Shown in pieces: positions 4,313 to 20,072 of a stretch of DNA of 64,000 bases. Source of the DNA: an uncultured Bacteroidota bacterium (GTDB lineage: Bacteria; Bacteroidota; Bacteroidia; Bacteroidales; UBA12481). The position numbers and the translations under genes are program-made. Below the pieces are notes generated by a model, which was not told the origin of the DNA, did not search any database, and worked only from the letters and a program-made list of their open reading frames with translations. Each line of letters opens with the position of its first letter. The first letter of the stretch is position 1. The stretch is taken from contig CAINOB010000098.1 of the NCBI GenBank assembly GCA_903851365.1, positions 1-64,000 of the forward strand, written 5' to 3'.

Positions 4313-4370
4313 CGCGTATTAGCATTAGTATAAATGAATGTGAAATAATCATAATCAGAAAAATAACATA

Positions 4371-4378
4371 CAAATATA
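4371..4378 (-). promoter_or_regulatory. Candidate -7 box (TATATTTG) for the BNR-repeat gene
   Basis: On the minus strand the octamer TATATTTG matches the Bacteroides -7 consensus TAnnTTTG about 60 nt before the ATG of the BNR-repeat protein. I see no good TTG/TTTG -33 element at 19-21 nt spacing, so support is partial. Confidence 0.35.
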
Positions 4379-4450
4379 GAATAATAGACCTTTTGTTAAT
4401 GATTGTTAATCAAAAGCGCTGATTAGCTCACTTGTGTGTAATTTGGCTTC

Positions 4451-5827
4451 GTGAACAGGAACCTGCGATATATTATTATTACCATGCTGATTGCGTTGGT
4501 AGGTATTATTATTTTCCAGATATACTGGATCAGCAATTCCTATGACCTGCATAACAAAACCTTCAGAAATGAGGTAAACACGGCTCTGGAAGAGGTACTT
4601 AACCTCGAAACCGAGGAAACCATTATCGGGCACATTCTCGATATGCAGGATAGTTCTAAAGAACCCATTGTAATTGAAACCTACCGTATTACCCAGCAGG
4701 CAGACAGCCTATCGACCGAATCCAATGCGGGAATCCTTAAAGATTCCATGTTTATCAAGCAGGCTGACCTTAACCGGATTGTCGGCAAAGTTTTCCAAAG
4801 CCTTGCCACCATTCATCCTGAATTGCCGGCCATCAGCAAAAAGTACGAGAAAGTTCTGAAGGAACGCAACATTACCACACCATTTTTGCTGGGGTTCAGC
4901 AAGAATGACACTGTGTTTGACCTTACCGGAGGCACACCGAAGCAATTTGAATCGGCACAGGCTATCCAAAAGCTTCCAGGCATCAACCGACATAATGAAA
5001 AAGTGCTGGCTTTTTTCCCGGAAACCCGATCATTCCTCCTCAAGAGAATGTGGATAACACTTTTCGCCTCAGTATTTTTTGTCTTGCTCATCGCAGGAAG
5101 TTTCTTTTATATGCTGGCAATGCTCGTCCGGCAGAAAAAACTATCAGAAATAAAAAATGATTTTGTCAACAATATGACTCATGAGCTCAAGACTCCAATT
5201 GCCACAGTATCAGCTGCAATGGAAGCCCTGGTGCAATTCGACGCATTGGACGACCGGACCAAAAGCCTGAAATACATCGATCTTTCACGTCGCGAGCTTA
5301 ATCGTTTGTCGGGTATGGTAGAAAATGTTTTACGCATAAGTACGTTTGAGAAGCAACGACTCGTTCTATTTAAGGAAACATTTAATATCAGCCAGGTTTT
5401 GGAAGAAACAGCGCAGAAATTCATCCTGCAGTATCCCGGACGTGTGGAATTTCAGTTTAATCTGAAGGGTCCCGGGTATATCCATGCCGACAAGTTTCAC
5501 ATACAGAATATCATTAACAATCTGTATGACAATGCTGTAAAATACTCAGGAGCTTCGGCACAACTGGAGGTCGGCTGTTTCCGCGAGAATGAATTTGTTG
5601 TGATCGTGGTTCGCGATCACGGGATCGGTATATCTAAAGAACAACAAAAACATATTTTCGATAAATTTTACCGGGTACCAACCGGCGACCTCCATGCTGT
5701 CAAGGGTTTCGGTCTTGGCCTGGCTTATGTCAGGCAGATTGCCGAAGCTCATGGCGGAACTGTTGGGGTTAAAAGCCAGCTAGGTGCCGGTTCAGAATTT
5801 ACTGTTGCATTACCAGAAATCCAATGA
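4451..5827 (+). CDS. Membrane sensor histidine kinase
   Basis: 458 residues. A transmembrane helix at residues about 8-27 and another at about 197-217 enclose a ~170-residue periplasmic sensor of no recognised family. The cytoplasmic part has a HisKA domain with the H-box MTHELKTP (His244) and a HATPase domain with N-box (NNLYDNAVKY), G1 (RDHGIGI) and G2 (GFGLGLAYV) motifs. The start is GTG. The next in-frame ATG falls inside the first membrane helix, so GTG is preferred. The stop overlaps the start of the response regulator by 4 nt (ATGA), so they form one translationally coupled two-component pair. The architecture resembles Bacteroides RprX, but identity is not shown. The signal is unknown. 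Confidence 0.9.
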   Translation: MNRNLRYIIITMLIALVGIIIFQIYWISNSYDLHNKTFRNEVNTALEEVLNLETEETIIGHILDMQDSSKEPIVIETYRITQQADSLSTESNAGILKDSMFIKQADLNRIVGKVFQSLATIHPELPAISKKYEKVLKERNITTPFLLGFSKNDTVFDLTGGTPKQFESAQAIQKLPGINRHNEKVLAFFPETRSFLLKRMWITLFASVFFVLLIAGSFFYMLAMLVRQKKLSEIKNDFVNNMTHELKTPIATVSAAMEALVQFDALDDRTKSLKYIDLSRRELNRLSGMVENVLRISTFEKQRLVLFKETFNISQVLEETAQKFILQYPGRVEFQFNLKGPGYIHADKFHIQNIINNLYDNAVKYSGASAQLEVGCFRENEFVVIVVRDHGIGISKEQQKHIFDKFYRVPTGDLHAVKGFGLGLAYVRQIAEAHGGTVGVKSQLGAGSEFTVALPEIQ

Positions 5828-6597: not shown

Positions 6598-7351
6598 AAA
6601 ATCCCAGCACCTCTCTGAGCTTCTTCAGCCCCGCTTTACTGGTATGAATCTTCTTACCCGACTTCATCACTAATACCTTGGTTTCTTTATCGTAAGGCTC
6701 GAGCTGCACGATCTGACTTAACCTGACAATATGTGATCGGTGTACCCTGATGAATTCCGCCGGATCCAGATGTTCTTCCAGATACCCCATGGTCATTTGT
6801 TTCAGGTATCTGCCATCGCTCACATAAACCATGACATAATCATCCTCAGCTTCGATATATTCGATTTGGTCAATGGCAATGACCTTAATTTTCTGACCGC
6901 TTCTCACCACGATACGGTCGAGGTACATCCCCGGGGTAAGCATTCCGCTGGCAAGTTTCGACAGTCCCGGAGCCGGTCCGGTTTTCTGATTGATCCTTTC
7001 GATTGCTTTATTGACTGATTGTGCAAAACGATCGCGGGAGTAAGGTTTCAATAAATAATCCACTGCATTGAACTCGAAAGCTTTAATTGCAAACTCATCG
7101 AAAGCTGTTGAAAAAATCACCTGAGGATATTCATCAAGCAACTCCAGCATTTCAAATCCCGAAATTTTAGGCATTTGAATATCCAGAAAAATCAGGTCGG
7201 GTTTATCTGACTGTATAGCTTTCATGCCTTCAAAACCATTGGCACATTCGCCTATAATGCTGATGTCAGGAAAGGATTCAAGATAAGACCGGATCAGGAT
7301 TCTGGCCGGTTCCTCATCGTCAATGATCAGTGCTTTGAGCTGGGGTTTCAT
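6596..7351 (-). CDS. LytTR-family response regulator
   Basis: 251 residues. The receiver domain (about 5-120) has the acidic pair in IIDDEEP, phospho-acceptor Asp57 in LIFLDIQMP, and Lys in LLKPYS. The LytTR DNA-binding domain (about 145-247) carries the characteristic IEYIEAEDDYVMVY and FIRVHRSHIV segments. It is the last gene of a minus-strand operon behind the LytS-type kinase, whose 3' end it overlaps by 32 nt. Family knowledge: LytTR regulators bind direct repeats and often control envelope or surface genes. Confidence 0.92.
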   Translation of the reverse strand: MKPQLKALIIDDEEPARILIRSYLESFPDISIIGECANGFEGMKAIQSDKPDLIFLDIQMPKISGFEMLELLDEYPQVIFSTAFDEFAIKAFEFNAVDYLLKPYSRDRFAQSVNKAIERINQKTGPAPGLSKLASGMLTPGMYLDRIVVRSGQKIKVIAIDQIEYIEAEDDYVMVYVSDGRYLKQMTMGYLEEHLDPAEFIRVHRSHIVRLSQIVQLEPYDKETKVLVMKSGKKIHTSKAGLKKLREVLGF

Positions 7352-8408
7352 GATTTGGGTTTTGCGGAATAGTCAGTTTAATGGTAAAGCGATTTTCCGT
7401 TCGCTGCACTTCCAGGCAATTTTCGCAATTATATGCCAAAAATAGGCGGTTCTGCGTATTGATCAAACCGATTCCCTTGCCCTTTCGCGGAGGCGCTTCC
7501 GGATCAAAATCGTTCGTAAGCTCTATCAGCAGATTTTCACTTTGATTACAGGAAGCTCTAAGTTCAATTTTCACTGGTTCAGTACTTTCGTAAACTCCAT
7601 GTTTTATTGAATTCTCGACCAGCGGCTGAAGTATCATGTGGGGAATTGTCATCGTCAGACACTCTTCGGGTACAATAAAATCAAACTGAAGTCTTTTGCC
7701 AAACCTTACTTTTTCAATTTCCAGATAGTACCTAATATTTTCGATTTCCGCGGAAAGGGAAGTCAGGTTGTTGTGTCGATTTTCCAGTGCATATCTCAGG
7801 AAACCCGAAAGCCTCACCAGCATTTCCCGAGCCTGCTCAGGCTGCGATGTTATCAGAGAGGATACTGAATTCAGGCTATTAAAGAGGAAATGAGGATTGA
7901 TTTGTGCCTTGAGCCGGTCGATTTCCGCTTCCTTAACCTGGAGACGCAAGGTAGATTCCTTACTTATCCTGGTTTTGCGGTCCTCGCTGTTGATATAAAG
8001 GTAGTAGATCATGATAATCAGCGAGTAGTAGAAAAAACCCGCTATGCCTCGCCATGGCAATGAACTGACAAGGAACTTCTGATACAGGGTCTGGTCGGTC
8101 CAGAGGTTATTTAGGATGATGAAACCCAGGCCGAGCCATACTCCCAGCACGAACATGGAAATCAGCAGATGGTTTAAAAGTCGGTCGAGCATCCCGGCCT
8201 TATTCAGATCATAATAACGGATTGAATACCAGAGGCCAAGTGCTATTCCGGCAAACAGGATATTGAATGTCGCGCTATCTGAAACAGCCATCCTGAGTTC
8301 CAATCCACCAGCCAGCCATAAAACAACTGCATGGATACCGGCAATCAGCATCCATGCAGTAATATAGGTTAAAGTATACGTCCGGTTGATCAGGAACGGA
8401 TTTTTCAT
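7320..8408 (-). CDS. LytS-type sensor histidine kinase (His_kinase/PF06580)
   Basis: 362 residues. Four predicted membrane helices lie in residues 10-140, with no sizeable extracytoplasmic domain. A short coiled-coil linker leads to the His_kinase motif AQINPHFLFNSLNS (His173) and a degenerate HATPase domain (MILQPLVENSIKHG; GKGIGLINTQNRL). It is cognate to the LytTR regulator that overlaps its 3' end. The gene upstream encodes a LiaF-like membrane protein ending 2 nt before this ATG, so the signal may reach the kinase through that partner, as in three-component Lia-type systems. That link is inference. Confidence 0.9.
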   Translation of the reverse strand: MKNPFLINRTYTLTYITAWMLIAGIHAVVLWLAGGLELRMAVSDSATFNILFAGIALGLWYSIRYYDLNKAGMLDRLLNHLLISMFVLGVWLGLGFIILNNLWTDQTLYQKFLVSSLPWRGIAGFFYYSLIIMIYYLYINSEDRKTRISKESTLRLQVKEAEIDRLKAQINPHFLFNSLNSVSSLITSQPEQAREMLVRLSGFLRYALENRHNNLTSLSAEIENIRYYLEIEKVRFGKRLQFDFIVPEECLTMTIPHMILQPLVENSIKHGVYESTEPVKIELRASCNQSENLLIELTNDFDPEAPPRKGKGIGLINTQNRLFLAYNCENCLEVQRTENRFTIKLTIPQNPNHETPAQSTDH

Positions 8409-8409
8409 T

Positions 8410-9180
8410 TTAGATACCGTATGATTTTACTTCGCCGCCACCAAAGATAGCCACACCCTTTATGATAAGCATTGTATTCTGATCATAAACAAGGTTTGGC
8501 ATCCTTTCGCGTTTATCGCTGAATCCACCAAAAATGGCCATGACTTCAACTTTAACGGTCCAGCCTGCCGGAACAATAACGGTAGATCCTCCGAAGATAC
8601 TGAGTGTATCGAGTATTTGCTGACCTTCAGCCAGCTTGGCATTCATCAGATTAATCTTTGACCCGCCAAAAACGCTTAAAATACGGCCACCTTTAAAACT
8701 CTGTGAGGTGATGATCCTGTCGCCGCCGCTGAATACAGCCACCTCATCTATAAAATCCCGGTTGTCTCCATTCTGCTGAGGGTTCCTCCAATGACGGAGA
8801 TAACGGGGTGGAGCAGCAATCAGGTAGATACCAAACAACAGAAGCATAGCTGGCCAGAAAGCATGGCGCCAATACTCCGGGAAATCATAAAAATGATTGA
8901 CGAGTGAAATACCCCCGATGGCAATCAGGAAGATTCCCGGAAAAGCATTTCGATTGTTGATCAGTGAAATAACTCCTATAGCGATCAGAAACATTTGCCA
9001 GGATATTACAATCCTCCTAACATCGTAAGGGATAATATCAAATACGTTGCCTAAAGCTATCAGGCCAACAAGAATAAGCAAAACACCCCATCCTCGGCGG
9101 CTATTGAGGTGCCTGCGCTGGTCGAAAACCGGACGATCGTGCCGGTGACCCCTTGTGAAATCTCTGTCCATTCGTTCCAT
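8410..9180 (-). CDS. LiaF-like membrane protein (DUF5668 plus FGG beta repeats)
   Basis: 256 residues. The N-terminus is a His/Arg-rich cytoplasmic tail, followed by four short hydrophobic segments (about 30-125) as in LiaF-TM/DUF5668 domains. The C-terminal half is an all-beta domain with a recurring core: VFSGG, VFGGS, IFGGS, IFGGF, IFGGG. This matches the 'cell-wall-active antibiotics response' (DUF2154-like) domain of LiaF proteins. In Firmicutes LiaF represses the LiaRS kinase system. Here the gene heads an operon with a LytS/LytTR pair, so a similar accessory role is plausible but unproven. The protein could alternatively be a bactofilin-like assembly factor. Confidence 0.75.
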   Translation of the reverse strand: MERMDRDFTRGHRHDRPVFDQRRHLNSRRGWGVLLILVGLIALGNVFDIIPYDVRRIVISWQMFLIAIGVISLINNRNAFPGIFLIAIGGISLVNHFYDFPEYWRHAFWPAMLLLFGIYLIAAPPRYLRHWRNPQQNGDNRDFIDEVAVFSGGDRIITSQSFKGGRILSVFGGSKINLMNAKLAEGQQILDTLSIFGGSTVIVPAGWTVKVEVMAIFGGFSDKRERMPNLVYDQNTMLIIKGVAIFGGGEVKSYGI

Positions 9181-9549: not shown

Positions 9550-10350
9550 ATGAAAAAGGCTAGAAAAAAAAGTAAGATCCAGGTTGCGTCGCTGGTCATC
9601 CCGGCTGCATTTGTAATCGCTGAATTGATCTTCGCATTTGTTTTTGGATCAGGAGATAACTTTATTGGTGGCAATCACGACAATATGCCGATTGTCGGTA
9701 ATTTTATGGGAACGATTTACAAAGGAGGTTTTATCGTACCTATCCTGATGACTCTTTTGCTCACCGTTATCACTTTTTGTATTGAGCGTTTTGTTGCCAT
9801 CCGCAGGGCAAAAGGCAAAAATCAGGCAGGTCAGCTGATTGCTGATGTTAAAGAAAAGCTGAATACCCATAAAGTTGCTGAAGCAATTGTTTTATGCGAC
9901 AACCATAAAGGCTCATTAGCCAATGTTATCAAATCTGGCTTGCTGAAATATCAGGAAGTTGAGAAAGATGATACTTTGAGTAAAGAACAAAAAACTCTGG
10001 CTATTCAGAAAGATGTTGAAGAATCAACTTCACTTGAATTGCCTTCATTGGAGCAAAACCTCGTTATCCTGGCAACTATTTCTTCAGTTTCAACCCTTAT
10101 GGGTCTGTTAGGAACAGTTCTTGGTATGATCCGGTCATTTGCCGCTATGTCAAGTGCTGGTGCTCCTGACTCCACCAAGCTTGCAACTGGTATTTCTGAA
10201 GCTCTGATCAACACAGCTTTTGGTATCGGTACTGCAGCTCTGGCTGTTATCATGTATAACTTTTTTACATCCAGTATTGATAAAATCACCTATAGCATCG
10301 ACGAAGCCGGCTATAGCATTGTTCAGTCATTTGGTGCGACCCATAAATAG
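9550..10350 (+). CDS. exbB: ExbB/TolQ/MotA-family proton channel subunit, first copy
   Basis: 266 residues. A basic N-terminus precedes a hydrophobic helix (about 12-32), a Gly/Asn-rich extracytoplasmic loop, a second helix (about 58-82), a cytoplasmic domain, and two C-terminal helices (about 160-185 and 205-235). The C-terminal part carries the family signature around GLLGTVLGMIRSF and ALINTAFGIGTAALAV. The extra N-terminal helix makes it longer than the second copy at 15375 (217 aa). ExbB forms a pentamer around an ExbD dimer and uses the proton motive force to drive TonB. Here two exbD-like genes and tonB follow directly with 4-12 nt gaps. Confidence 0.93.
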   Translation: MKKARKKSKIQVASLVIPAAFVIAELIFAFVFGSGDNFIGGNHDNMPIVGNFMGTIYKGGFIVPILMTLLLTVITFCIERFVAIRRAKGKNQAGQLIADVKEKLNTHKVAEAIVLCDNHKGSLANVIKSGLLKYQEVEKDDTLSKEQKTLAIQKDVEESTSLELPSLEQNLVILATISSVSTLMGLLGTVLGMIRSFAAMSSAGAPDSTKLATGISEALINTAFGIGTAALAVIMYNFFTSSIDKITYSIDEAGYSIVQSFGATHK

Positions 10351-10359
10351 TCCTGGTTT

Positions 10360-10965
10360 ATGCCAAAAATTAAAATTCCGAGGAAAAGTACCTGGCAGGA
10401 TATGACTGCGATGTGCGATGTGGCATTCTTGTTATTGACATTCTTCATCCTTACATCGAACATGGTCCAAGTCGAAGCTGTCAAGGTAGCGATACCCTCT
10501 TCGATTTCCGAGATAAAAATCTTGGAAACTAATATTGTCAAAATCCTGATCGATCCGCAAGGAAAGATTTTCTACGAGATTGACGGACAAGAGCATCGCA
10601 TGAACTTGCTTAAAAAGATGGGCGAGCAGTACAACGTCACTTTTACTGACAAAGAATTAAGAGAATTCAGTATTGTCCCAAGCTTTGGCGTACCCATGTC
10701 GGCCATGAAATCCTATCTCGCAATCAAAGCGGAGGATAGGTCCAACAAAGAAAACCTGCTGGGCATACCCTGCGATTCTACCGACAACCAGCTTAAATAC
10801 TGGATCGGGATGTCGTTAGCCGTTAACCCGAAGATCCTAATTTCCATCAAAGCTGACCAGAGCACTCCGTTTCCGGTTATTAAAAAAGTTTTCGGGACCT
10901 TACAGGACCTGAAACAAAACCGGTTCAACCTGATCACCAGCCTTGAGGAAAATCCAATCCGCTAA
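10360..10965 (+). CDS. exbD: ExbD-family protein with enlarged periplasmic domain
   Basis: 201 residues, against roughly 130-145 for typical ExbD. The N-terminus has the ExbD layout: a short basic cytoplasmic tail, then one membrane helix with the conserved aspartate in MCDVAFLLLTFF (Asp19). The periplasmic part includes an apparent insertion at about residues 75-150 that contains a Cys and a Ser/Asp-rich stretch. The C-terminus returns to an ExbD-like fold (ISIKADQSTPFPVIKKVFGTL). It lies between exbB and a second exbD. Because motors contain two ExbD chains per ExbB pentamer, this copy may pair with the next gene product as a heterodimer. That is inference. Confidence 0.85.
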   Translation: MPKIKIPRKSTWQDMTAMCDVAFLLLTFFILTSNMVQVEAVKVAIPSSISEIKILETNIVKILIDPQGKIFYEIDGQEHRMNLLKKMGEQYNVTFTDKELREFSIVPSFGVPMSAMKSYLAIKAEDRSNKENLLGIPCDSTDNQLKYWIGMSLAVNPKILISIKADQSTPFPVIKKVFGTLQDLKQNRFNLITSLEENPIR

Positions 10966-10977
10966 ATAAACTGAAAA

Positions 10978-11604
10978 ATGGCAGAAATAAATACAGATAA
11001 GGGTGGCGGTAAGAAGCATTCCAAGAAGCCCAAAGGGAAAAAGATGTCGACTCGAATCGACCTTACCCCTATGGTCGACCTTGGCTTCCTGCTGATCACT
11101 TTTTTTATGCTGGCTACTACACTGATCAAACCTCAAACAATGGAGATCAGTATGCCTTCGAAAGATAAAGTTCCCGAAGAGGAGCAAAGCAAGATTAAGG
11201 CATCCAAGGCTATAACAATTATTCTCGCCAAGGATGACAGTATCTACTATTATTTCGGAACCCGCGAAAATGATATCGACCCTGAAGTGATAGTTTCAAA
11301 CTTCGGACCTACTGGAATCAGACAGGTCTTACTCGACAGGAATGCCTCTGTTATGGCAAAAGTCGCTCAATTGAGAAAGGAAAAATCGGCAAAGAATCTT
11401 ACTGATGAAGATTTCTCAAAGCAGCTTTCTTTAATAAAGGCTGATGATCAAGCTCCTATTGTTGTAATTAAGTCAACTGACAATGGCACTTATAAAAATA
11501 TGGTAGATATTCTTGATGAGATGAATATTTGCAATATCGGCAGATATGCCATTGTTGACATTACGGCTTTTGACAAAGAATTAATTCAAAACCGTAAAAA
11601 ATGA
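10978..11604 (+). CDS. exbD: ExbD-family biopolymer transport protein, second copy
   Basis: 208 residues. It begins with a Lys/Gly-rich cytoplasmic tail of about 25 residues, then DLTPMVDLGFLLITFFMLA, where the conserved aspartate sits at the start of the single membrane helix. The periplasmic domain of about 155 residues includes a variable middle part, and the C-terminus (APIVVIKSTDNGTYKNMVDILDEMN) matches the ExbD core. It starts 12 nt after the first exbD and ends 4 nt before tonB, so it is part of the same transcription unit. Confidence 0.9.
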   Translation: MAEINTDKGGGKKHSKKPKGKKMSTRIDLTPMVDLGFLLITFFMLATTLIKPQTMEISMPSKDKVPEEEQSKIKASKAITIILAKDDSIYYYFGTRENDIDPEVIVSNFGPTGIRQVLLDRNASVMAKVAQLRKEKSAKNLTDEDFSKQLSLIKADDQAPIVVIKSTDNGTYKNMVDILDEMNICNIGRYAIVDITAFDKELIQNRKK

Positions 11605-11608
11605 TGCT

Positions 11609-12421
11609 ATGAAAACAGGAACAAACATTTTTTCCGATGATTGGATTGCACTCGTATTTGAAGGCAGAAACCAGGAATACGGAGCATTCGATCTCAGGCA
11701 TCTCTCTAACAAAAGGCACCGCCGGGCTATCATAATAGCATTTGTCCTCTTTACCATAGGTATTTGCTCGCCGACGATTATTAAAAAGGTAATGCCAAAA
11801 GGAAGAGAACGTAACGTCGAGGTTACTACTCTTGCCAACCTTAAGTTGGAAGATGCAGCGCCCGAAAAGCCAAAGGAAATTTACATTCCACCGCCACCCG
11901 TAAGGTCGACAATCAAGTTCACTGCTCCGGTAATCAAGCCTGATGAAGAGATCCCTGCTGAAGAACAGATGAAAACACAGGATGAGCTGAATAAAACCGA
12001 TATTACGATTGGTGCAGCTGACGTGAAAGGTGTTGACACCCTCCCGCCTGATTTGTCCGGTCTTGAGGCAGATGCCCAGGGCCAGCAGATTGTTGAAGTT
12101 GAAACATTGCCTTTTGCATTGGTTGAGGAACAGCCGATTTTTCCTGGTGGTGAAGATGCCTTGATGGCATTTATTCAAAAGACCACGCGTTATCCTGATG
12201 AAGCCATTGAAGCAGGCGTTTCGGGCCGTGTTTTTATTGGTTTCGTTATCGATACAAACGGTAAAGTTACGAACGTGAAACTTCTGAGGGGTATATCAAG
12301 GGCTCTTGATGAGGAAGCCTTACGTGTTATCAGGTTAATGCCAGACTGGATGCCAGGCAGGCAAAATGGTCACACCGTAAGAGTATCCTATTCAGTACCT
12401 GTCAATTTTGTACTCCACTGA
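11609..12421 (+). CDS. tonB: TonB energy transducer
   Basis: 270 residues. A cytoplasmic N-terminal segment of about 38 residues (with the Bacteroidetes-type YGAFDLR motif) precedes one membrane helix (about 40-60). The periplasmic linker is Pro/Glu/Lys-rich (APEKPKEIYIPPPP). The C-terminal TonB domain (about 175-270) has the FPGGEDAL, YPDEAIEAGVSGRVFIGFVI and LDEEALRVIRLMPDW segments. It transfers energy from ExbB/ExbD to outer-membrane TonB-dependent receptors. Two such receptors, SusC at 27739 and the riboswitch-controlled one at 54878, are encoded in this window. Its TGA overlaps the ATG of the next small gene by one base. Confidence 0.93.
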   Translation: MKTGTNIFSDDWIALVFEGRNQEYGAFDLRHLSNKRHRRAIIIAFVLFTIGICSPTIIKKVMPKGRERNVEVTTLANLKLEDAAPEKPKEIYIPPPPVRSTIKFTAPVIKPDEEIPAEEQMKTQDELNKTDITIGAADVKGVDTLPPDLSGLEADAQGQQIVEVETLPFALVEEQPIFPGGEDALMAFIQKTTRYPDEAIEAGVSGRVFIGFVIDTNGKVTNVKLLRGISRALDEEALRVIRLMPDWMPGRQNGHTVRVSYSVPVNFVLH

Positions 12422-12642
12422 TGAAGACTGTTCCCGTTAAAGCGATCAGGTACTTTCGTTTGATTATGCCGGCGTTCTATATTCTTGTGGGAATCCTTCT
12501 TTTGTTCACCGAGTTTCTGGTTGAACAGGTTGGTAAGTACGGGCGTGCTGCCGGAGGCCTGATGGTTATTTACGGGATATTCCGGATTTACCGGGCTATT
12601 AGCGATAATTCAAATAAGGAAAGTGATGAAACAGCCAATTAG
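12421..12642 (+). CDS. Small two-helix membrane protein
   Basis: 73 residues with two hydrophobic helices (about 12-31 and 43-61), a basic start (MKTVPVKAIRYFR) and an acidic, Asn/Ser-rich tail. No named family is recognised. It overlaps the tonB stop by one base, and its own 3' end overlaps the ATG of the PstS-like gene by 17 nt. This tight packing on both sides supports it as a real, co-translated gene. It may be an accessory of the TonB motor or of the PstS-like protein; the sequence does not decide. Confidence 0.7.
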   Translation: MKTVPVKAIRYFRLIMPAFYILVGILLLFTEFLVEQVGKYGRAAGGLMVIYGIFRIYRAISDNSNKESDETAN

Positions 12643-13570
12643 CATATTTATTGTGCCTTTGGCTGTTTTATTGCTGACCTGTGTTTCCTGTCAGAATAAT
12701 AAAACAAAGGAGCTCAGCACTCCTACCTCCGGGACTGTGACCATTTACTCCGACGAGTCATTCAAACCAGTCATTGACCCTTTGCTGAGCGTATTTAATG
12801 CAATTTATCCGTATGCCACGGTTAGCTGCATTTACCTTTCAGAAACGGATGGAATGAACCTATTTCTGAAAGGCAGAAATTCGATGATTTTTGCCACGCG
12901 CAAACTAACCTCAGCTGAAAAAGAATATTTCAATTCTTACCAACTGTTTCCAGTTGAAATTCATTTTGCCAGTGACGCTATTGCATTAATTGTTCATCCA
13001 ACCCATACCGACTCTCTGATCTCGGTAAAACAAATCCGCGAAATTCTCACCGGCAAGATATCTAAATGGAACCAGCTTGGGTCTCGGAGCAGTTCCGATA
13101 GCATCAAGCTGGTTTTCGATAATACAGGTTCAGGTACTGTGCGCTTCATGATTGATTCAGTTTGTCAGGGTGAAGCTCTTGGAAAACATCTCAATGCACT
13201 TAAAAGCAACAGCGAAGTTATCCAATATGTATCTAACCACCCCAGTTCTATTGGTATCATTGGTGTTGGCTGGATCAGTAACGGACGCGATTCAACTAGC
13301 ATGTCATTTCTTAAGAAAATCAAAGTATTGCGGGTTAGCCGTTCCGACAACCCAACCCTGGCCAATTCATACTATCCTTACCAGGCAAATCTTTTTCCCG
13401 GATTGTATCCGCTGGTCCGGTCCATTTTTCTTATAAATGCCGAACCTCATAAAGGTTTGGCAAGTGGCATGGCATCGTTCGTTTGTAGCGACCGTGGCCA
13501 ACGCATCCTCCTGAAGACCGGAATTTTGCCGGTCTATGAAACTGTTCGAAAAGTTAAAATTAAAGAATAA
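12626..13570 (+). CDS. PstS-like phosphate/oxyanion-binding lipoprotein
   Basis: About 314 residues from the ATG at 12626; a GTG three bases earlier is less likely. The lipoprotein signal ends in CVSC. The mature protein has the PBP-like (PstS/SBP-bac) arrangement: TIYSDESFKPVIDPLL near the start, the central ISVKQIREILTGKISKWNQLG motif, a DNTGSGTVRF anion-binding-like loop, and a late AYYPYQ-like hinge (SYYPYQANLFPGLYPL). No pstC, pstA or pstB lies nearby, and the gene sits inside a TonB operon. It may deliver or sense an anion for a TonB-dependent process, or have been recruited for another role. Confidence 0.8.
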   Translation: MKQPISIFIVPLAVLLLTCVSCQNNKTKELSTPTSGTVTIYSDESFKPVIDPLLSVFNAIYPYATVSCIYLSETDGMNLFLKGRNSMIFATRKLTSAEKEYFNSYQLFPVEIHFASDAIALIVHPTHTDSLISVKQIREILTGKISKWNQLGSRSSSDSIKLVFDNTGSGTVRFMIDSVCQGEALGKHLNALKSNSEVIQYVSNHPSSIGIIGVGWISNGRDSTSMSFLKKIKVLRVSRSDNPTLANSYYPYQANLFPGLYPLVRSIFLINAEPHKGLASGMASFVCSDRGQRILLKTGILPVYETVRKVKIKE

Positions 13571-13576
13571 CCTGTT

Positions 13577-15271
13577 ATGAAGAAAATCCTTATCTCACTG
13601 GCTACCCTTGCCGCTGTTGTAATTATCCCGGTTTTATCAGGTTTTGCCCAGGATCCGGCTAAACGCATGGAAATGGGACAATATGCCAAAGCCAAACTTG
13701 CCTACCTCGACAAGTACAATAAAAAGCAAACTACAGATCCCAACCTCTTTTTCAATCTGGGAAATATCTACCTGAAAGCTAATCAGGTTGATTCTGCAGC
13801 ATTCTTTTTCAAGCAGGGAATTCTGATTGCTAAATCCAATCCTCTGAATTATGTCGGTCTGGCCAATTGCTATTATCAGACTGGTGATACCGTTCAGGCT
13901 AAATCAAACCTGAAATATTCTTCGTCATTAGCCCGCAGTAATCCTGACTATTATCTGGCCCTTGCTGAAATGTACATGCAGCCTAATCCGGGAAACGCAG
14001 TTTTGGCCGAGAAAAACCTTGACAAAGCGCTGGAAATTAAACCCGGATATGCAAAAGCACACATTTTAAAAGGTGACTTCTACCTTACCCAGAACAAAGC
14101 CGGGGATGCTGCAAACTCCTACAAACAGGCAATTTATTATGATAAAAACAATCCTCTCACCCACTACAAAGCCGCACAGGTTTACCGTAGGGGAGGAATT
14201 TATCAGGATGCCATCAATGAAATGAAGAAGGCAATTGCCATCGACAGCAACTATGTTCCCGCTTACAGGGACATGGGTGAAATCTATCTGTTGTATGATC
14301 AGTATCCATTTGCCCGCAAAAGTTACGACAGCTACATCCGTAAAATTGATCCGGAACCAAACGACCTGATTCGCTATGCTTCGATTCTGGTTTTGGATAA
14401 AGATTTCGCCAAAGCCTCCGAAGTTCTCGCCCAGTTGAAAGCAAAAAATGTTCAGGACAAAAATATTTTGAGGCTCCAGGCTTACACAGATTATGAAACC
14501 GGCAAATATCCTGAAGGTCTGGCTTCTATTCAAAACTTCTTTCAGAATCCACAAAATGTAAATCCGATAGCATCAGATTATGAATATTATGGGAATTTGC
14601 TGAAGAAAAATAATCTTGATTCACTCGCAATTCCGCAATACCTGAAAGTCATTGAACTTGATACAACGCGCTTTTCGCTAAATGAAGAGATTGCAAGGAT
14701 TTATGAGAAAAATAAAAAATTCCCTGAAGCAGCTCATTATTATGAACTTATGATGACTAAAAAAACTCCTACTCAGGTTGAATATTTCAAAGTCGGCAGG
14801 TTATATTATTTGACAGCTACAGCAAAACCAGCCACTGATTCCGTTCAAAAACTTGCCGATTCGCTGGCAAAACCAGAACGCATCAAAAAGGCATCAGCAA
14901 ATTTCGCCAAGGTTTGTGAGTTATCTCCTAACAACTATTTAGGTTGGCTCTTCCAGGCTCGTACACAAACACTCCTTGATCCTGAAACAGAGCAGGGACT
15001 TGCCAAACCATATTATGAAAAAGCATTAACAATCTTGAATGCCACTCCTGATAAATTCAAGAAAGAAATTACCGAATGCTTAAAGTTTATGGGATACTAC
15101 TATTATGTCCGTTTTGACAATGCCACGAAAGCCGCAAAAAAAGCAGACATTCCACTTTACCGGGATTCATCACTGGTCTATTGGAACAATATTGTCACGC
15201 TCGATCCTAACGATAAACAGGCTTTAGATGCTATAGGTGCTTTGAAGCAAAAACCAATTGTCAACAAATAA
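13577..15271 (+). CDS. Periplasmic TPR protein
   Basis: 564 residues with a cleavable signal peptide (VLSGFAQD). It is built almost entirely of tetratricopeptide repeats from about residue 35 to 550, with typical spacing and motifs such as LFFNLGNIYLKANQVDSAAFFF and AYRDMGEIYLLYDQYPFA. It lies 6 nt after the PstS-like gene and is the last gene before a strong terminator. Within the cluster it probably acts as a scaffold in the periplasm. No enzymatic domain is visible. Confidence 0.85.
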   Translation: MKKILISLATLAAVVIIPVLSGFAQDPAKRMEMGQYAKAKLAYLDKYNKKQTTDPNLFFNLGNIYLKANQVDSAAFFFKQGILIAKSNPLNYVGLANCYYQTGDTVQAKSNLKYSSSLARSNPDYYLALAEMYMQPNPGNAVLAEKNLDKALEIKPGYAKAHILKGDFYLTQNKAGDAANSYKQAIYYDKNNPLTHYKAAQVYRRGGIYQDAINEMKKAIAIDSNYVPAYRDMGEIYLLYDQYPFARKSYDSYIRKIDPEPNDLIRYASILVLDKDFAKASEVLAQLKAKNVQDKNILRLQAYTDYETGKYPEGLASIQNFFQNPQNVNPIASDYEYYGNLLKKNNLDSLAIPQYLKVIELDTTRFSLNEEIARIYEKNKKFPEAAHYYELMMTKKTPTQVEYFKVGRLYYLTATAKPATDSVQKLADSLAKPERIKKASANFAKVCELSPNNYLGWLFQARTQTLLDPETEQGLAKPYYEKALTILNATPDKFKKEITECLKFMGYYYYVRFDNATKAAKKADIPLYRDSSLVYWNNIVTLDPNDKQALDAIGALKQKPIVNK

Positions 15272-15275
15272 TCTT

Positions 15276-15304
15276 AAAAAGGCATCTTAGCGGATGCCTT
15301 TTTT
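15276..15304 (+). terminator. Rho-independent terminator after the TPR gene
   Basis: A GGCATC/GATGCC stem with a six-base loop is flanked by A and T runs (AAAAA upstream, TTTTTT downstream). It starts 4 nt after the TPR stop codon and separates the exbB-tonB-pstS-TPR unit from the second exbB-exbD pair. Confidence 0.85.
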
Positions 15305-15308
15305 AATA

Positions 15309-15338
15309 TTGGCTTTATCTAACAATTTATTACCATTG
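15309..15338 (+). promoter_or_regulatory. Promoter candidate for the second exbB-exbD pair
   Basis: TTG at 15309-15311 is followed after exactly 19 nt by TACCATTG at 15331-15338. This is one mismatch from the Bacteroides -7 consensus TAnnTTTG with ideal spacing to -33. It lies between the terminator and the ATG at 15375. Confidence 0.5.
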
Positions 15339-15374
15339 TAATCGTTTTTCAAATAAAACGGGAGACCTACTAAT

Positions 15375-16028
15375 ATGTCAGCAATTTCTGATCAGGTTAT
15401 AGCCAAAGCACCAGCCGGTATTTCAGTTTTCGACCTCTTGCTCAACGGGGGTTACGTTATGATACCGATCTTCCTTCTCTCCATAATCGCCGTTTATGTA
15501 TTTATCAACAAATTCGCTTACATAAGGCGCCTTGCCCTGGTGGACCAGAATTATGTCATTAACATTCTGAATAGCCTTGATGGCACCGATGTTGGCCGCG
15601 CGATCTCGATGTCGAAAATGAATACTACTGCCATTGGCCGGATATTTGAAACAGGGCTTCACTACATAGGAAGGCCTGTTAAGGATATCGAAGCATTCAT
15701 TGAGACAGCAACCAACCTCGAGATCGGTAAAATGGAAAGGAATCTCAGCTACCTGGGTATCATCGCAGGTATAGCTCCAATGCTAGGTTTTATCGGAACA
15801 ATTTCAGGGGTTATAAAAATATTTTACAGCATATCTATGACCGATAATATCAGCATCGGGATTATCGCCGGAGGACTTTATCAGAAGATGGTCTGTAGCG
15901 GCGCAGGTCTTATTGTTGGTGTTATGGCCTATTCTTTTTACCATTACCTGCAGATGATGATCGACCGGTTTACTCTGTCGGTTCAGGATTCCGCATTTGA
16001 TTTTATGAAAAGAATTACCCAGCCGTGA
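15375..16028 (+). CDS. exbB: ExbB/TolQ/MotA-family proton channel subunit, second copy
   Basis: 217 residues with three predicted membrane helices (about 25-47, 120-145, 160-188), the canonical ExbB/TolQ topology. Signature segments are LSYLGIIAGIAPMLGFIGTISGVI and the GGLYQKMVCSGAGLIVGVMAY helix. It is shorter than the copy at 9550 because it lacks the extra N-terminal helix. It has its own promoter candidate after a terminator, and its stop overlaps the start of an exbD gene. It could form a second motor, of TolQR or ExbBD type, or supply alternative channels to the same TonB. Confidence 0.92.
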   Translation: MSAISDQVIAKAPAGISVFDLLLNGGYVMIPIFLLSIIAVYVFINKFAYIRRLALVDQNYVINILNSLDGTDVGRAISMSKMNTTAIGRIFETGLHYIGRPVKDIEAFIETATNLEIGKMERNLSYLGIIAGIAPMLGFIGTISGVIKIFYSISMTDNISIGIIAGGLYQKMVCSGAGLIVGVMAYSFYHYLQMMIDRFTLSVQDSAFDFMKRITQP

Positions 16029-16423
16029 AACTCCGTAGAAACAAACCATTTCAGGCTGAGGTAAGCACCACCTCCCTGAATGACATCATGTTCTTCCTGC
16101 TGCTGTTTTTCCTCATTGTTTCAACAATGGCTAATCCTAATGTCATCAGGCTTCTTCTACCAAAAGCAGGTTCAACTCAAACGGTCAGCAAACTTCAGAT
16201 TACGGTTTCAGTAACTGAAGACAAACGTATTTACCTGGATAATAAAGAGATAACCTTTGATCAATACGTTGCAGAACTAAAGAAGGTTGCAACAACCATG
16301 GATGAGCCAACCATTATTCTACGGATGGCGCAAAACCTGATAATACAGGATCTGGTAGATTATCTTGAGGTTGGGGCCAAGGAAAAGGTAAAAATAGTGC
16401 TGGCGACAGAAAAAAAGAAATAG
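16025..16423 (+). CDS. exbD: ExbD/TolR-family protein, third copy
   Basis: 132 residues, the normal ExbD/TolR length. A short cytoplasmic tail precedes a membrane helix beginning TTSLNDIMFFLLLFFLIVST, with the conserved aspartate in LNDIMF. A compact periplasmic domain follows. The start is GTG, overlapping the upstream exbB stop (GTGA). It pairs with the second ExbB. Compared with the two long ExbD copies at 10360 and 10978, this is the canonical form. Confidence 0.92.
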   Translation: MKLRRNKPFQAEVSTTSLNDIMFFLLLFFLIVSTMANPNVIRLLLPKAGSTQTVSKLQITVSVTEDKRIYLDNKEITFDQYVAELKKVATTMDEPTIILRMAQNLIIQDLVDYLEVGAKEKVKIVLATEKKK

Positions 16424-16567: not shown

Positions 16568-17155
16568 ATGTCAAGCGCTTCAAATCATGAAATCCATGTG
16601 GATAATTCATTATCCGGGTTAATCTTAAAGCATACTGAAGTACCGGTCCAAAAATGCTATCAATGCGGAAAATGTTCCGCAGGATGTCCGGTGGTTTCTG
16701 AGATGGATTATCCTCCAAGCCTGATTTTAAGAATGTTACAAACCGGTCTTCCGGAAATGGAAGAAAAGGTTTTGCGTTCTTATTCCATCTGGCTCTGCCT
16801 AAGCTGCGAACAGTGCATCTCGCGTTGCCCGATGGAGATAGATATCCCGAAAATGATGGACTATCTGAGGCAGGTATCCTACAAAAAGAAAATGGTTAAT
16901 CCCAGGGCAAAAAACATTGTACGCTTTCATAAGGCTTTTCTCGATTCCATCCGGACTACCGGCAGGTTATCTGAGTTCGGACTGACCGTTGATTATAAGC
17001 TTCGCTCATTAAAGATGATGCAGGATCTGACCCTGGTTCCATCCATGATTTCCAGGGGGAAACTAGGATTTATCCCGGAAATGATCAAAGGCACTAAAGA
17101 GATGGCCAAAATATTCGCGAAAACTACCGGATTAAAATCGGAGGAAGAAAAATGA
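16568..17155 (+). CDS. hdrC: Heterodisulfide reductase subunit C-like ferredoxin
   Basis: 195 residues with two CxxCxxCxxxCP 4Fe-4S motifs (CYQCGKCSAGCP near residue 30 and CLSCEQCISRCP near residue 78). This is the HdrC pattern. The C-terminal ~100 residues are helical and basic. HdrC passes electrons between HdrA and HdrB. It is the first gene of a seven-gene plus-strand operon, and its TGA overlaps the ATG of hdrB (ATGA). The 144-nt region upstream holds only a weak TGCATA/TATGCA inverted repeat, and I find no convincing promoter there. Confidence 0.88.
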   Translation: MSSASNHEIHVDNSLSGLILKHTEVPVQKCYQCGKCSAGCPVVSEMDYPPSLILRMLQTGLPEMEEKVLRSYSIWLCLSCEQCISRCPMEIDIPKMMDYLRQVSYKKKMVNPRAKNIVRFHKAFLDSIRTTGRLSEFGLTVDYKLRSLKMMQDLTLVPSMISRGKLGFIPEMIKGTKEMAKIFAKTTGLKSEEEK

Positions 17156-18060
17156 AGTTAGGAATTTATCCAGGATGCTCATTAACCGGTTCAGCCAGGG
17201 ATTATAATGAATCGGTTTTTGCAATAGCAAAAGCTTGCGATATTCAGCTTGAACAGGTTCCCGACTGGAATTGCTGCGGAGCAACTGCTGCGCATAATAT
17301 GAATAAGGAACTATCTCTGTCACTTCCGGCACGTATACTTGCCCAGGCAGAAAAGGCCGGCCTGACAGATATTGTTATTCCGTGCGCTGCATGCTATAGC
17401 CGCCTGATGGTAACGCAGCACGAACTGAATAACGATCCGGTGTTAAAGAACAGGATTTCCGAAATCATAGAAATGGATTTTAAGGGAACAACCAATATTC
17501 TGAATGTTGTTCAGATGATTGACCTTTATGTATCACCGGTACTTAAAGAAAAAATCGTTAAAAACTTCAGCCATAAGGTTGCCTGTTATTATGGTTGCCT
17601 GATGGTTCGTCCGTATAAAGTTTTGCAGTATGATCAGCATGAGGATCCGCAGGGGATGGATAATGTTATACGCCTTCTCGGCGGGACTGCCATTGACTGG
17701 GGTTACAAAGTTGAATGCTGTGGTGCAGGGCTTACCATGTCGAAAACTGAAATCGTAGGTATGCTTTCCGGCAAAATTGTTAAGGATGCCGCCCGTCGTG
17801 GTGCACAGGCAATTGTTGTTGCCTGCCCGATGTGCCATTCAAACCTCGACATGCGTCGGCCAGCTATCAATGAATATATCGGGGAAAAGATGGATATCCC
17901 GGTTATCTATATTACACAAGCCATAGGGCTGGCATTAGGTATCGATGAGAAGACTCTTGGTTTGCAGCGCCATTTTGTACCCGTAAAAATGGCTGAGTAT
18001 ATTCCCCCGGTACCAGAATCAAAGAAACAGAAAGCTAAAGAACCAACTAACACAATATAA
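17152..18060 (+). CDS. hdrB: Heterodisulfide reductase subunit B-like CCG-domain protein
   Basis: 302 residues with two CCG (cysteine-rich) domains. The first has GCSLTG, NCCGATAAH and CAACYSR; the second has CYYGC, ECCGAGLTMS and CPMCHSN. In HdrB these cysteines hold the noncubane 4Fe-4S clusters that cleave a disulfide. All the expected cysteines are visible, so the catalytic chemistry should be intact. In non-methanogens the natural substrate is unknown. It is coupled to hdrC by overlap and lies 2 nt before hdrA. Confidence 0.9.
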   Translation: MKLGIYPGCSLTGSARDYNESVFAIAKACDIQLEQVPDWNCCGATAAHNMNKELSLSLPARILAQAEKAGLTDIVIPCAACYSRLMVTQHELNNDPVLKNRISEIIEMDFKGTTNILNVVQMIDLYVSPVLKEKIVKNFSHKVACYYGCLMVRPYKVLQYDQHEDPQGMDNVIRLLGGTAIDWGYKVECCGAGLTMSKTEIVGMLSGKIVKDAARRGAQAIVVACPMCHSNLDMRRPAINEYIGEKMDIPVIYITQAIGLALGIDEKTLGLQRHFVPVKMAEYIPPVPESKKQKAKEPTNTI

Positions 18061-18062
18061 AG

Positions 18063-20072
18063 ATGTCCCGAATAGGTGTTTTTGTTTGTCATTGTGGTGA
18101 AAATATTAGTGCAACCGTAGATGTTGCTAAAGTTGCCGAAGAAGCCTCCAAATTACCCGGAGTGGTTCACAGTGTTGATTATAAATATATGTGCTCCGAC
18201 CCAGGTCAGACGCTGGTTAAGGAAGCCATCAAGGAACATAATCTGACTGGTGTTGTGGTAGCTGCCTGTTCACCGCGCATGCATGAGCCAACTTTCCGTA
18301 AAGCCTGCGCTCAGGCCGGGCTTAACCCTTACCTGAGTGAAATGGCCAATGTGCGTGAGCATTGCTCGTGGGTGCACGAAAAGAGCGAACAGACCACTCA
18401 GAAAGCCTTTGATGTTGTCAGGACCATGGTTTCCAAGGCTTCCAATAATGCTGCCCTGGAGCCTATCAAGGTGCCTGTAACAAAAAGGGCCCTCGTAGTT
18501 GGCGGCGGTGTTGCCGGGATCCAGGCTGCATTGGATATTGCCAATACCGGACATAAAGTTATACTGGTGGAGCGCTCTCCTTCGATTGGCGGTCATATGG
18601 CCCAGCTTTCCGAGACCTTCCCCACCCTTGACTGTTCCCAGTGTATTCTCACCCCGAGAATGGTGGAAGTGGCCCAGCATCCCAATATCACGCTTTATAC
18701 CCATAGTGAAGTGGAGAGTGTTGACGGGTTCATCGGTAACTTTCATGTAAAAATCAGAAAGAAGGCCCGTAGTCTCGATGAAGATTTGTGTACAGGCTGT
18801 GGTTTATGTACTACAAAATGTCCGCAAAAGAAGATTCCGAGCGAATTCGAACAACTACTCGGCACCCGTCCTGCCATCTATACGCCATTTCCGCAAGCGG
18901 TGCCAAATAAGCCGGTTATCGACCGCGATAACTGCACTTTCTATAAAACGGGAAAATGCAAGATTTGTGAGATAGTATGCCCGACAAAAGCTATTCGGTT
19001 TGATCAGGAAGATACCATCCTTGAGGTGGAAATCGGCGCCATTGTTCTGGCAACCGGATTCGATGTCAAGCATTCCGATTTCTTCCCCGAATATGGAAAA
19101 GGAAAATACAAGGATGTTATTGATGGATTGCAGTTTGAACGTCTCGCATCCGCTTCAGGCCCCACACAGGGAATGATTCGCAGGCCTTCTGACGGACAGA
19201 TACCGAAAAAAATAGTCTTTATTGCCTGTGCGGGTTCGCGTGATCCGGCCAAAGGAATTGAATATTGTTCAAAGATATGCTGCATGTATACTGCCAAGCA
19301 TGCCATGCTTTATAAACATAAAGTACATGATGGTGAAGCACATGTATTCTATATGGATATACGTGCCGGTGGCAAGATGTATGAAGAATTTGTCCGCCGT
19401 GCAATTGTTGAGGATCATGTAAATTACACCAGGGGACGGGTATCAACCATTTATGAACTTGACGGCAAACTGATTGTTAAGGGAGCCGATACCCTGTTAG
19501 GCGCCCAGTCCGTTGAAATTGAAGCCGACATGGTAGTTCTGGCTACAGCTGGTGTTGCCAGCGAAGGTTCAGAAGATCTGGCTCAGAAGATGCATGTTTC
19601 ATACGATCAGCATAAATTCTTTGCCGAGGCTCATCCAAAACTAAAGCCTGTTGAAACAAATACCGGCGGAATTTTCCTGGCCGGAGCCTGCCAAACCACC
19701 CGGGATATCCCCGACAGTGTTGCCATGGCTTCAGGTGCAGCAGTCAAAGTGGCTGCATTATTCTCGTCCGACCTGCTTACCCGTGAACCTATTGTTGCCA
19801 GAGTAAACCGAATTCCAGGACCATCGCATTCAACCTGCGTGGGATGCTTCCTGTGTCAGCCGGTTTGCCCGTATCAGGCCATCGAGCGTGAAGATATCAA
19901 GGACCGCGCCGGTAACATCATTAAATCCCTGGCCAGAATCAACGAAGGGCTTTGTCAGGGTTGTGGTACCTGTGTAGCATTGTGCCGTTCGAAATCGATC
20001 GATCTGTTGGGCTATACCGATAATCAGATGCACGGTGAAGTTTTGTCAGTACTGGAAGAAGCCTTTGTTTAA
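18063..20072 (+). CDS. hdrA: Heterodisulfide reductase subunit A-like flavoprotein
   Basis: 669 residues, the full HdrA length. The N-terminal cysteine region includes VCHCG, YMCSDPGQ and ACSPRMHE. A Rossmann motif VVGGGVAGIQAA (near residue 145) binds FAD, and a LDCSQCILTPRM motif follows. Fe-S motifs are CTGCGLCTTKCP, CKICEIVCP, CVGCFLCQPVCP and CQGCGTCVALC; the last lacks the usual proline. HdrA is the bifurcating flavin centre in methanogen and bacterial Hdr complexes. No in-frame TGA (selenocysteine) is present. A 30-nt gap separates it from the mvhD-like gene. Confidence 0.92.
   Translation: MSRIGVFVCHCGENISATVDVAKVAEEASKLPGVVHSVDYKYMCSDPGQTLVKEAIKEHNLTGVVVAACSPRMHEPTFRKACAQAGLNPYLSEMANVREHCSWVHEKSEQTTQKAFDVVRTMVSKASNNAALEPIKVPVTKRALVVGGGVAGIQAALDIANTGHKVILVERSPSIGGHMAQLSETFPTLDCSQCILTPRMVEVAQHPNITLYTHSEVESVDGFIGNFHVKIRKKARSLDEDLCTGCGLCTTKCPQKKIPSEFEQLLGTRPAIYTPFPQAVPNKPVIDRDNCTFYKTGKCKICEIVCPTKAIRFDQEDTILEVEIGAIVLATGFDVKHSDFFPEYGKGKYKDVIDGLQFERLASASGPTQGMIRRPSDGQIPKKIVFIACAGSRDPAKGIEYCSKICCMYTAKHAMLYKHKVHDGEAHVFYMDIRAGGKMYEEFVRRAIVEDHVNYTRGRVSTIYELDGKLIVKGADTLLGAQSVEIEADMVVLATAGVASEGSEDLAQKMHVSYDQHKFFAEAHPKLKPVETNTGGIFLAGACQTTRDIPDSVAMASGAAVKVAALFSSDLLTREPIVARVNRIPGPSHSTCVGCFLCQPVCPYQAIEREDIKDRAGNIIKSLARINEGLCQGCGTCVALCRSKSIDLLGYTDNQMHGEVLSVLEEAFV

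Follow-up and report, generated by a model that had tools for sequence, protein, structure and literature searches.

A phylum-wide Bacteroidota Ton operon with two distinct ExbD proteins, a PstS-like lipoprotein and a TPR protein

The window, i.e., the whole stretch of 64,000 nucleotides analysed here from an uncultured Bacteroidota bacterium, carries a cluster of Ton-type genes whose open reading frames all lie on the plus strand. The order is exbB-exbD1-exbD2-tonB, followed by genes for a 73-aa membrane protein, a PstS-like lipoprotein and a TPR protein, then a terminator and then exbB2-exbD3:

exbB1, 9550..10350, plus strand: 266 aa, subunit of a pentameric proton channel of the ExbB/TolQ family; Pfam MotA_ExbB 6e-32
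exbD1, 10360..10965, plus strand: 201 aa; Pfam ExbD 5e-17; own clade A_D1
exbD2, 10978..11604, plus strand: 208 aa; Pfam ExbD 4e-21; own clade A_D2
tonB, 11609..12421, plus strand: 270 aa; Pfam TonB_C 1e-20
small membrane protein, 12421..12642, plus strand: 73 aa, resembling half of a DUF308 domain, with two TM helices recognised by inspection
PstS-like lipoprotein, 12626..13570, plus strand: 314 aa; Pfam PBP_like_2 3e-32; alternative GTG start at 12623
TPR protein, 13577..15271, plus strand: 564 aa; many Pfam TPR models
terminator hairpin, about 15276..15303, no strand: A and T runs on the flanks; recognised by folding energy
exbB2, 15375..16028, plus strand: 217 aa; Pfam MotA_ExbB 2e-20
exbD3, 16025..16423, plus strand: 132 aa; Pfam ExbD 5e-24

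From exbB1 to the TPR gene, the successive gaps measure 10, 13, 5, 0, -19 (-16 with the ATG start) and 7 bases. This gene order had been claimed in a first-pass annotation and stands, with open reading frames and Pfam matches for all genes and the same order kept across the phylum. ExbB/ExbD-family motor proteins and a TonB are encoded together, all above the Pfam cut-off; neither tolB nor pal is found among the genes of the cluster, which encodes a TonB_C protein instead. The 73-aa membrane protein matches DUF308 at 4.5e-4, below the cut-off. The hairpin at 15276-15303 folds at -14.6 kcal/mol (z -3.5) and is likely a bidirectional terminator, in line with the terminator proposed earlier between the first operon and exbB2. 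The promoter candidate that the same annotation assigned to exbB2 did not hold up: sigma-70-like and Bacteroidota-like (TTTG-N-TANNTTTG) motifs are no more frequent than expected by chance, and the 72 bases from the terminator to exbB2 contain no TANNTTTG.

The cluster TonB consists of a cytosolic N-terminus with the motif FEGRNQEYGAF, one transmembrane helix, a proline-rich linker and the TonB_C domain. Residues about 69-76 (NVEVTTLA) resemble a D-box, the strand expected between the transmembrane helix and the linker; in a pattern search of the TonBs from related operons (type A, defined below) the motif was only loosely discernible and gave no clear consensus. The SHLS histidine is absent from the transmembrane helix, and a pattern S...H or H......L is matched by just one type A TonB out of 104, so that docking must differ in detail from that of E. 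coli-type TonB. The ExbBs and ExbDs of the cluster are the only ones in the genome. Its other TonB_C proteins are a fusion to an M56 peptidase and a short protein without evident membrane anchor, leaving the cluster TonB as the only membrane-anchored one found. Plug-domain matches number 30, corresponding to roughly 30 TonB-dependent transporters.

We refer to operons with the order exbB-exbD1-exbD2-tonB and ExbDs in clades A_D1 and A_D2 as type A, a definition that the window operon fits. The ExbB1 protein is 37-92% identical to type A ExbBs of the whole phylum. The search for this gene order across Bacteroidetes genomes, proposed in the first-pass annotation, found it kept phylum-wide. Exactly two exbDs lie between exbB and tonB in 110 of 110 readable loci of relatives, a partly selected tally, as 33 loci had been chosen for their tandem exbDs and 77 came from an ExbB search blind to exbD; tonB is next in order at 104/104 loci. 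The loss of exbD linkage that the annotation had named as counting against its reading was therefore not seen. For the PstS-like gene, linkage is kept together with the TPR gene in 76 of 95 loci, but neither lies beside the motor in the other 19, and the two are thus not universal. Neither gene ever occurs without the other. At three loci they have moved jointly to a position upstream of exbB, and in one genome (G182) the genes for the small protein, the PstS-like protein and the TPR protein form one unit on a different contig. A counterpart of the 73-aa membrane protein is present in 59 of the PstS-bearing loci. The cluster operon is a phylum-wide Bacteroidota Ton system and not a curiosity.

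The type A gene order is already published for Riemerella. The TonB2 operon of R. anatipestifer matches that of the window in gene order, with its two exbDs and with a PstS-type gene that was noted only as a neighbour; the window adds the interposed small membrane gene and the downstream exbB2-exbD3. There, uptake of iron and hemin depends on tonB2, and exbB2-exbD-exbD-tonB2 without the downstream genes was inactive in E. coli, whereas a plain exbB-exbD-tonB1 worked (PMC4446302). This failure is as expected if the accessory parts are needed; it may also have other causes. Tandem exbDs likewise occur in the Bacteroidota Ton operon exbB-exbD1-exbD2-tonB of Flavobacterium psychrophilum (Alvarez 2008, as related in PMC4446302 and PMC3551730, whose accessible accounts do not mention accessory genes) and, in a different phylum and as a likeness of arrangement, in tonB-exbB-exbD1-exbD2 of Xanthomonas campestris, where the second copy has a distinct phenotype (PMC3551730). 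The E. coli ExbB5-ExbD2-TonB complex shares the ExbB, ExbD and TonB families, the proton-carrying Asp and the TonB C-terminal domain, but differs in its single exbD, which forms a homodimer, in the SHLS histidine of TonB and in having no PstS-like or TPR partner (PMC12215075, PMC10907165). The Vibrio TonB2 system (TtpB, TtpC and the TPR protein TtpD) also combines a Ton motor with a required, system-encoded TPR protein, a likeness by description, and differs in that no PstS-like protein or second exbD is described (PMC6957404). A further known system, with a vWA transducer in place of TonB, shares the TPR protein and a hetero-pair of ExbD/TolR-type genes.

ExbD1 and ExbD2 are 35% identical to each other, and ExbD3 is 21-25% identical to either. 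In the ExbD tree a single branch sets each of the two classes, ExbD1 and ExbD2, apart from the remaining sequences, and they form two separate ancient clades. Conservation alignments show the transmembrane Asp to be invariant in both (D20 in ExbD1, D34 in ExbD2). ExbD1 is marked by GIP.DS..NEL in a helical insert at about residues 92-150, and ExbD2 by a conserved Lys51 right after the transmembrane helix and by a C-terminal strand RYAIVDIT. Foldseek searches with the AF2 model of ExbD1 (pLDDT 84) returned ExbD:D-box complexes, ExbD and TolR as top matches, with weak E-values. At the exit of the transmembrane helix, the ExbD1 class is acidic at +19 from the Asp in 94% of sequences and the ExbD2 class basic at +17 in 96%, such that one ExbD is acidic and its partner basic just outside the membrane in 106 of 110 type A pairs. 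A second exbD-exbD type (type B) has the same pattern, with an acidic residue at +18 in 97% and a basic one at +16 in 100%; the single-ExbD class (type C) is neutral there, in a control of just eight sequences. Charges beside membranes are common, and 69% of the ExbD1 class also carry a basic residue at +16.

The lipobox Cys22 of the PstS-like protein is invariant (44/44). Its AF2 model (pLDDT 92.5) predicts a two-lobed type II periplasmic-binding-protein fold, and phosphate-binding proteins are its best Foldseek matches, with 4gd5 at a TM-score of 0.90 (target length) and an rmsd of 2.1. Among 86 relatives, the residues of the phosphate site are exchanged (S to D in 82/86, loop S to E in 75/86, R to D in 75/86), whereas canonical PstS keeps the same positions (15/15, 15/15 with S or T, and 12/15); part of the S-S-T loop remains in place. 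As noted in the first-pass annotation, no pstC, pstA or pstB lies in the operon, and the canonical pstS of the genome is followed by pstC elsewhere (G000:C98, about 93 kb). The TPR protein is predicted to be periplasmic from a signal peptide recognised by inspection, and its C-terminal half matches the solved TPR protein 3u4t at 4e-37.

We lean slightly towards reading the cluster as the main Bacteroidota Ton motor in a type A variant, an explanation that includes the pairing of the two ExbDs and an accessory role for the downstream proteins. The motor would consist of five ExbB subunits, two ExbD paralogs that are not equivalent, and TonB, with the two-helix membrane protein, the PstS-fold lipoprotein and the secreted TPR protein as a putative periplasm-facing accessory set. 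By the mechanism described for E. coli, protons passing the Asp of each ExbD would rotate the two ExbDs within ExbB, and the rotating pair would pull TonB and open the transporters of the genome. One ExbD1 would pair with one ExbD2, which would fix the direction of the D-box and hence the docking side of TonB. The PstS-like and TPR proteins are probably structural or sensing partners of the motor or of TonB rather than an anion carrier.

A heterodimer of ExbD1 and ExbD2 is plausible as a hypothesis because two exbDs are kept, fall into separate clades, both have the Asp and carry charges of opposite sign where the helix leaves the membrane, in type A and type B pairs alike. In E. coli, the D-box is held by two ExbD protomers (2:1; PMC10907165), and the ExbD homodimer, being two-fold symmetric, binds one TonB D-box strand in either direction (PMC12215075). 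An obligatory heterodimer is argued against by exbD2 mutants of X. campestris and F. psychrophilum, in which iron uptake is reported to persist (PMC3551730); ExbD1 may thus work without ExbD2, at any rate in the presence of another Ton system. We consider it rather unlikely that an obligate ExbD1-ExbD2 axle with a single TonB docking direction drives outer-membrane uptake across most of the phylum, with the acidic-site lipoprotein (cationic or protein ligand) as gate and the TPR protein as coupler. The two ExbDs could instead form separate homodimers that compete for ExbB1, so that two motors would serve different tasks, for example uptake on the one hand and signalling or another envelope task on the other. 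The old, distinct clades with different signatures would fit this, as would the exbD2 mutants, which are reported to lose pectate-lyase induction or virulence but not iron uptake (PMC3551730). We regard these separate homodimers as possible but doubtful: motors with separate duties should sometimes split or vanish, yet both exbDs stay in place at every readable locus; the fixed opposite charges would bring like charges together in homodimers; and most operons have one tonB only.

The first-pass annotation also suggested that the PstS-like protein feeds or senses an anion. Binding of an anion (phosphate) that is delivered by, or sensed for, TonB-driven uptake would suit the PstS fold, the structural matches and the remaining part of the S-S-T loop, but is very unlikely, because the Ser/Ser/Arg of the phosphate site have become conserved Asp/Glu/Asp and a genuine pstS-pstC exists elsewhere, with no permease genes linked here. 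Still more improbable is a neutral retention of the second exbD and the PstS-TPR genes, as passengers of an old operon that share no function; the absence of PstS-TPR from some loci would allow this, but phylum-wide retention, class-specific conserved residues and the joint relocation of the trio speak against it. The annotation's dual motor is right in that two ExbB-ExbD sets exist, but a single membrane-anchored TonB was found. ExbD3 is a divergent member of the type C clade. Its nearest relative outside the genus, at locus L159 from a Cyclobacteriaceae MAG, is likewise encoded immediately after a type A TPR gene. A spare motor able to act on the operon's TonB as well, in a switchable two-motor system, would be consistent with this shared adjacency, with the position of exbB2-exbD3 directly downstream and with the finding of a sole anchored TonB; we judge it unlikely, given that ExbB2 is only 23% identical to ExbB1, that the terminator separates the two sets and that the adjacency was seen only in the window's genus and at L159. 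The second pair may serve an unrelated function in the envelope, similar to that of Tol.

The SusC-type transporters with which Bacteroidota acquire glycans number in the dozens and are energised by such motors. B. fragilis reportedly depends on one of six TonBs for most SusC-type uptake (work cited in PMC11658791). The cluster is ordinary in identity, and its interest lies in the conserved, unexplained parts. These include an acidic-pocket PstS-like protein as a conserved partner of the Bacteroidota Ton motor. Should ExbD1 and ExbD2 indeed form a heterodimer, each protomer of this 5:2 rotary motor could be mutated on its own. The timing of proton transfer by either Asp and the face to which TonB is bound would then become accessible, both of which are masked by symmetry in the E. 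coli homodimer.

The first-pass annotation had described the cluster correctly, and its gene names all stand against Pfam: nine genes lie on the plus strand at 9550-16423, seven of them in a tight operon and two past the terminator.

7320-9180 (-): LytS-type histidine kinase and LiaF-like membrane protein, divergent, upstream of the operon
9550-16423 (+): exbB1, exbD1, exbD2, tonB and genes for a 73-aa membrane protein, a PstS-like lipoprotein and a TPR protein; terminator; exbB2, exbD3
15375-16423 (+): the exbB2-exbD3 pair
16568-20072: Hdr-like genes after the cluster, encoding an Fe-S protein, a CCG-domain protein and an HdrA-like flavoprotein

The three ExbD and two ExbB matches in the genome all fall within 9550-16423. 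Three proteins carry a TonB_C domain; because one of the other two is a fusion with an M56-type peptidase and the second, with 159 residues, has no evident membrane anchor, judging from sequence, the operon TonB is probably the sole classical one and probably serves the about 30 Plug-domain proteins of the genome. A fusion of an M56/BlaR1-like peptidase with a TonB C-terminal domain is encoded on another contig (C103; locus L235, positions 3724-5375, minus strand), adjoining a BlaI-like repressor gene.

The cluster belongs to a type that occurs across the phylum and has been published in part. ExbD searches in 148 genomes of the phylum, plus two smaller samples, found tandem ExbDs in most of the phylum. 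Loci were read in 60 regions and in 80 named loci (GTDB genomes, fetched through ExbB), including Bacteroides, Phocaeicola, Parabacteroides, Barnesiella, Pedobacter, Sphingobacterium, Hymenobacter, Pontibacter, Spirosoma, Cytophaga and Chitinophaga. Operons like that of the window, here called type A, contain two exbDs in 110/110 loci readable past exbD1; the lone apparent exception, L171, is explained by a split frame. Its exbD2 lies in two overlapping frames (10487-11130; 108 and 117 aa), a MAG frameshift or a real break. The next gene is tonB in 104/104 loci. Among 95 loci with room, the PstS-like and TPR genes lie downstream in 73 and upstream of exbB in 3, and are never separated from each other beside the motor. 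In genome G182, the small membrane gene and these two stand as one block, with exbB-exbD-exbD-tonB located on another contig. Type A operons of Hymenobacter, Pontibacter and related loci (L107, L109, L113, L114, L118, L135) have two consecutive tonB genes before the PstS-like and TPR genes.

In type B motors, exbB is followed by a membrane-protein gene (about 158 aa) and then by two exbDs; type C pairs exbB with one exbD, frequently alongside tonB. In a maximum-likelihood tree built from 109 ExbDs, a single branch separates each of five groups from all others: first copies of type A, second copies of type A, first copies of type B, second copies of type B, and type C. Across 45 genomes, drawn from the window's order and closer relatives, 11 have type A alone, 30 type B alone, 2 both and 2, which are incomplete, neither (Fisher 5e-7, without kinship correction). 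Types A and B look like alternatives because they seldom share a genome and because the window's genus splits into four genomes with type A and four with type B. In this swap (loci L034-L036, L044-L047), G000, G148, G150 and G153 stand against G149, G151, G152 and G154, members having either the type A operon or a type B motor together with type C.

ExbB2-ExbD3 belong to the type C side of the tree, on a long branch common with a Cyclobacteriaceae MAG (locus L159), whose counterpart follows a type A TPR gene at a distance of 156 bases. The pair sits just behind that gene in both the window's genus and the MAG, and the two ExbDs are mutual nearest kin. The separate promoter proposed for exbB2 was not borne out, since sigma-70-like sites and the Bacteroidota-type motif occurred there only at chance frequency.

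The PstS-like protein has a phosphate-binding-protein fold, and its lipobox cysteine is invariant (44/44). When 86 relatives were aligned with 15 canonical sequences, an oxyanion-ligating S was replaced by D in 82/86, the neighbouring D/S/T by E in 65/86, a loop S/T by E in 75/86 with loss of glycines, and R by D in 75/86; an S-G-T loop is partly retained. Such an acidic pocket, its geometry read from the alignment, should repel phosphate, so that the suggested feeding or sensing of an anion is disfavoured; any ligand that it has may be an amine, a protein side chain or a cation. A canonical pstS-pstC pair is encoded on the same contig, C98, some 80 kb from the operon (L094/L233, about 93.2-95.3 kb). 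This pstC has a PBP-like stretch in its N-terminal part, an arrangement that recurs in relatives (L182, L184, L186, L188, L189).

In Riemerella anatipestifer, uptake of iron and hemin requires tonB2 of the matching operon. That operon, taken as exbB-exbD-exbD-tonB only, was inactive in E. coli even with its own hemin transporter, whereas a plain exbB-exbD-tonB1 set was active (PMC4446302). The outcome is compatible with the downstream proteins being needed but does not demonstrate it. A TPR protein, TtpD, is required in Vibrio TonB2 systems (PMC6957404). In a conserved departure from E. coli, the SHLS histidine is missing from type A TonBs (pattern in 1/104), and about half carry a cytosolic RN..YGAY-type motif (58/104 by pattern).

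Both ExbD paralogs keep the transmembrane Asp. Their differences lie beyond the membrane: ExbD1 has a GIP.D signature within an inserted helical region (91/110), and ExbD2 a conserved Lys past the transmembrane helix and a conserved C-terminal strand. At position +19 from the Asp, 94% of ExbD1 sequences carry an acidic residue, and at +17, 96% of ExbD2 sequences carry a basic one; an acidic ExbD1 exit and a basic ExbD2 exit occur together in 106/110 pairs. Type B shows the corresponding contrast, with an acidic residue at +18 of the first copy (97%) and a basic one at +16 of the second (100%), while single type C ExbDs are neutral there (only 8 sequences). Opposite exit charges are suggestive of an obligatorily adjacent pair, and like copies would repel each other. 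Against obligate pairing counts the dispensability of exbD2 for iron uptake reported for Flavobacterium psychrophilum and Xanthomonas campestris (PMC3551730). The proposed ExbD heterodimer is reasonable and better supported now, but unproven. Neither the oppositely charged hetero-pair nor the acidic-pocket PstS-like protein seems to have been described in the searchable literature (most subscription journals and preprints excluded).

Two ExbD protomers clasp one TonB D-box strand, which runs parallel to one of them and antiparallel to its partner (PMC10907165). A symmetric dimer accepts the strand either way round, and this has been linked to ExbB having several sites at which TonB docks (PMC12215075). 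This work gives a mechanical reason for interest in the hetero-pair, which would choose one D-box orientation.
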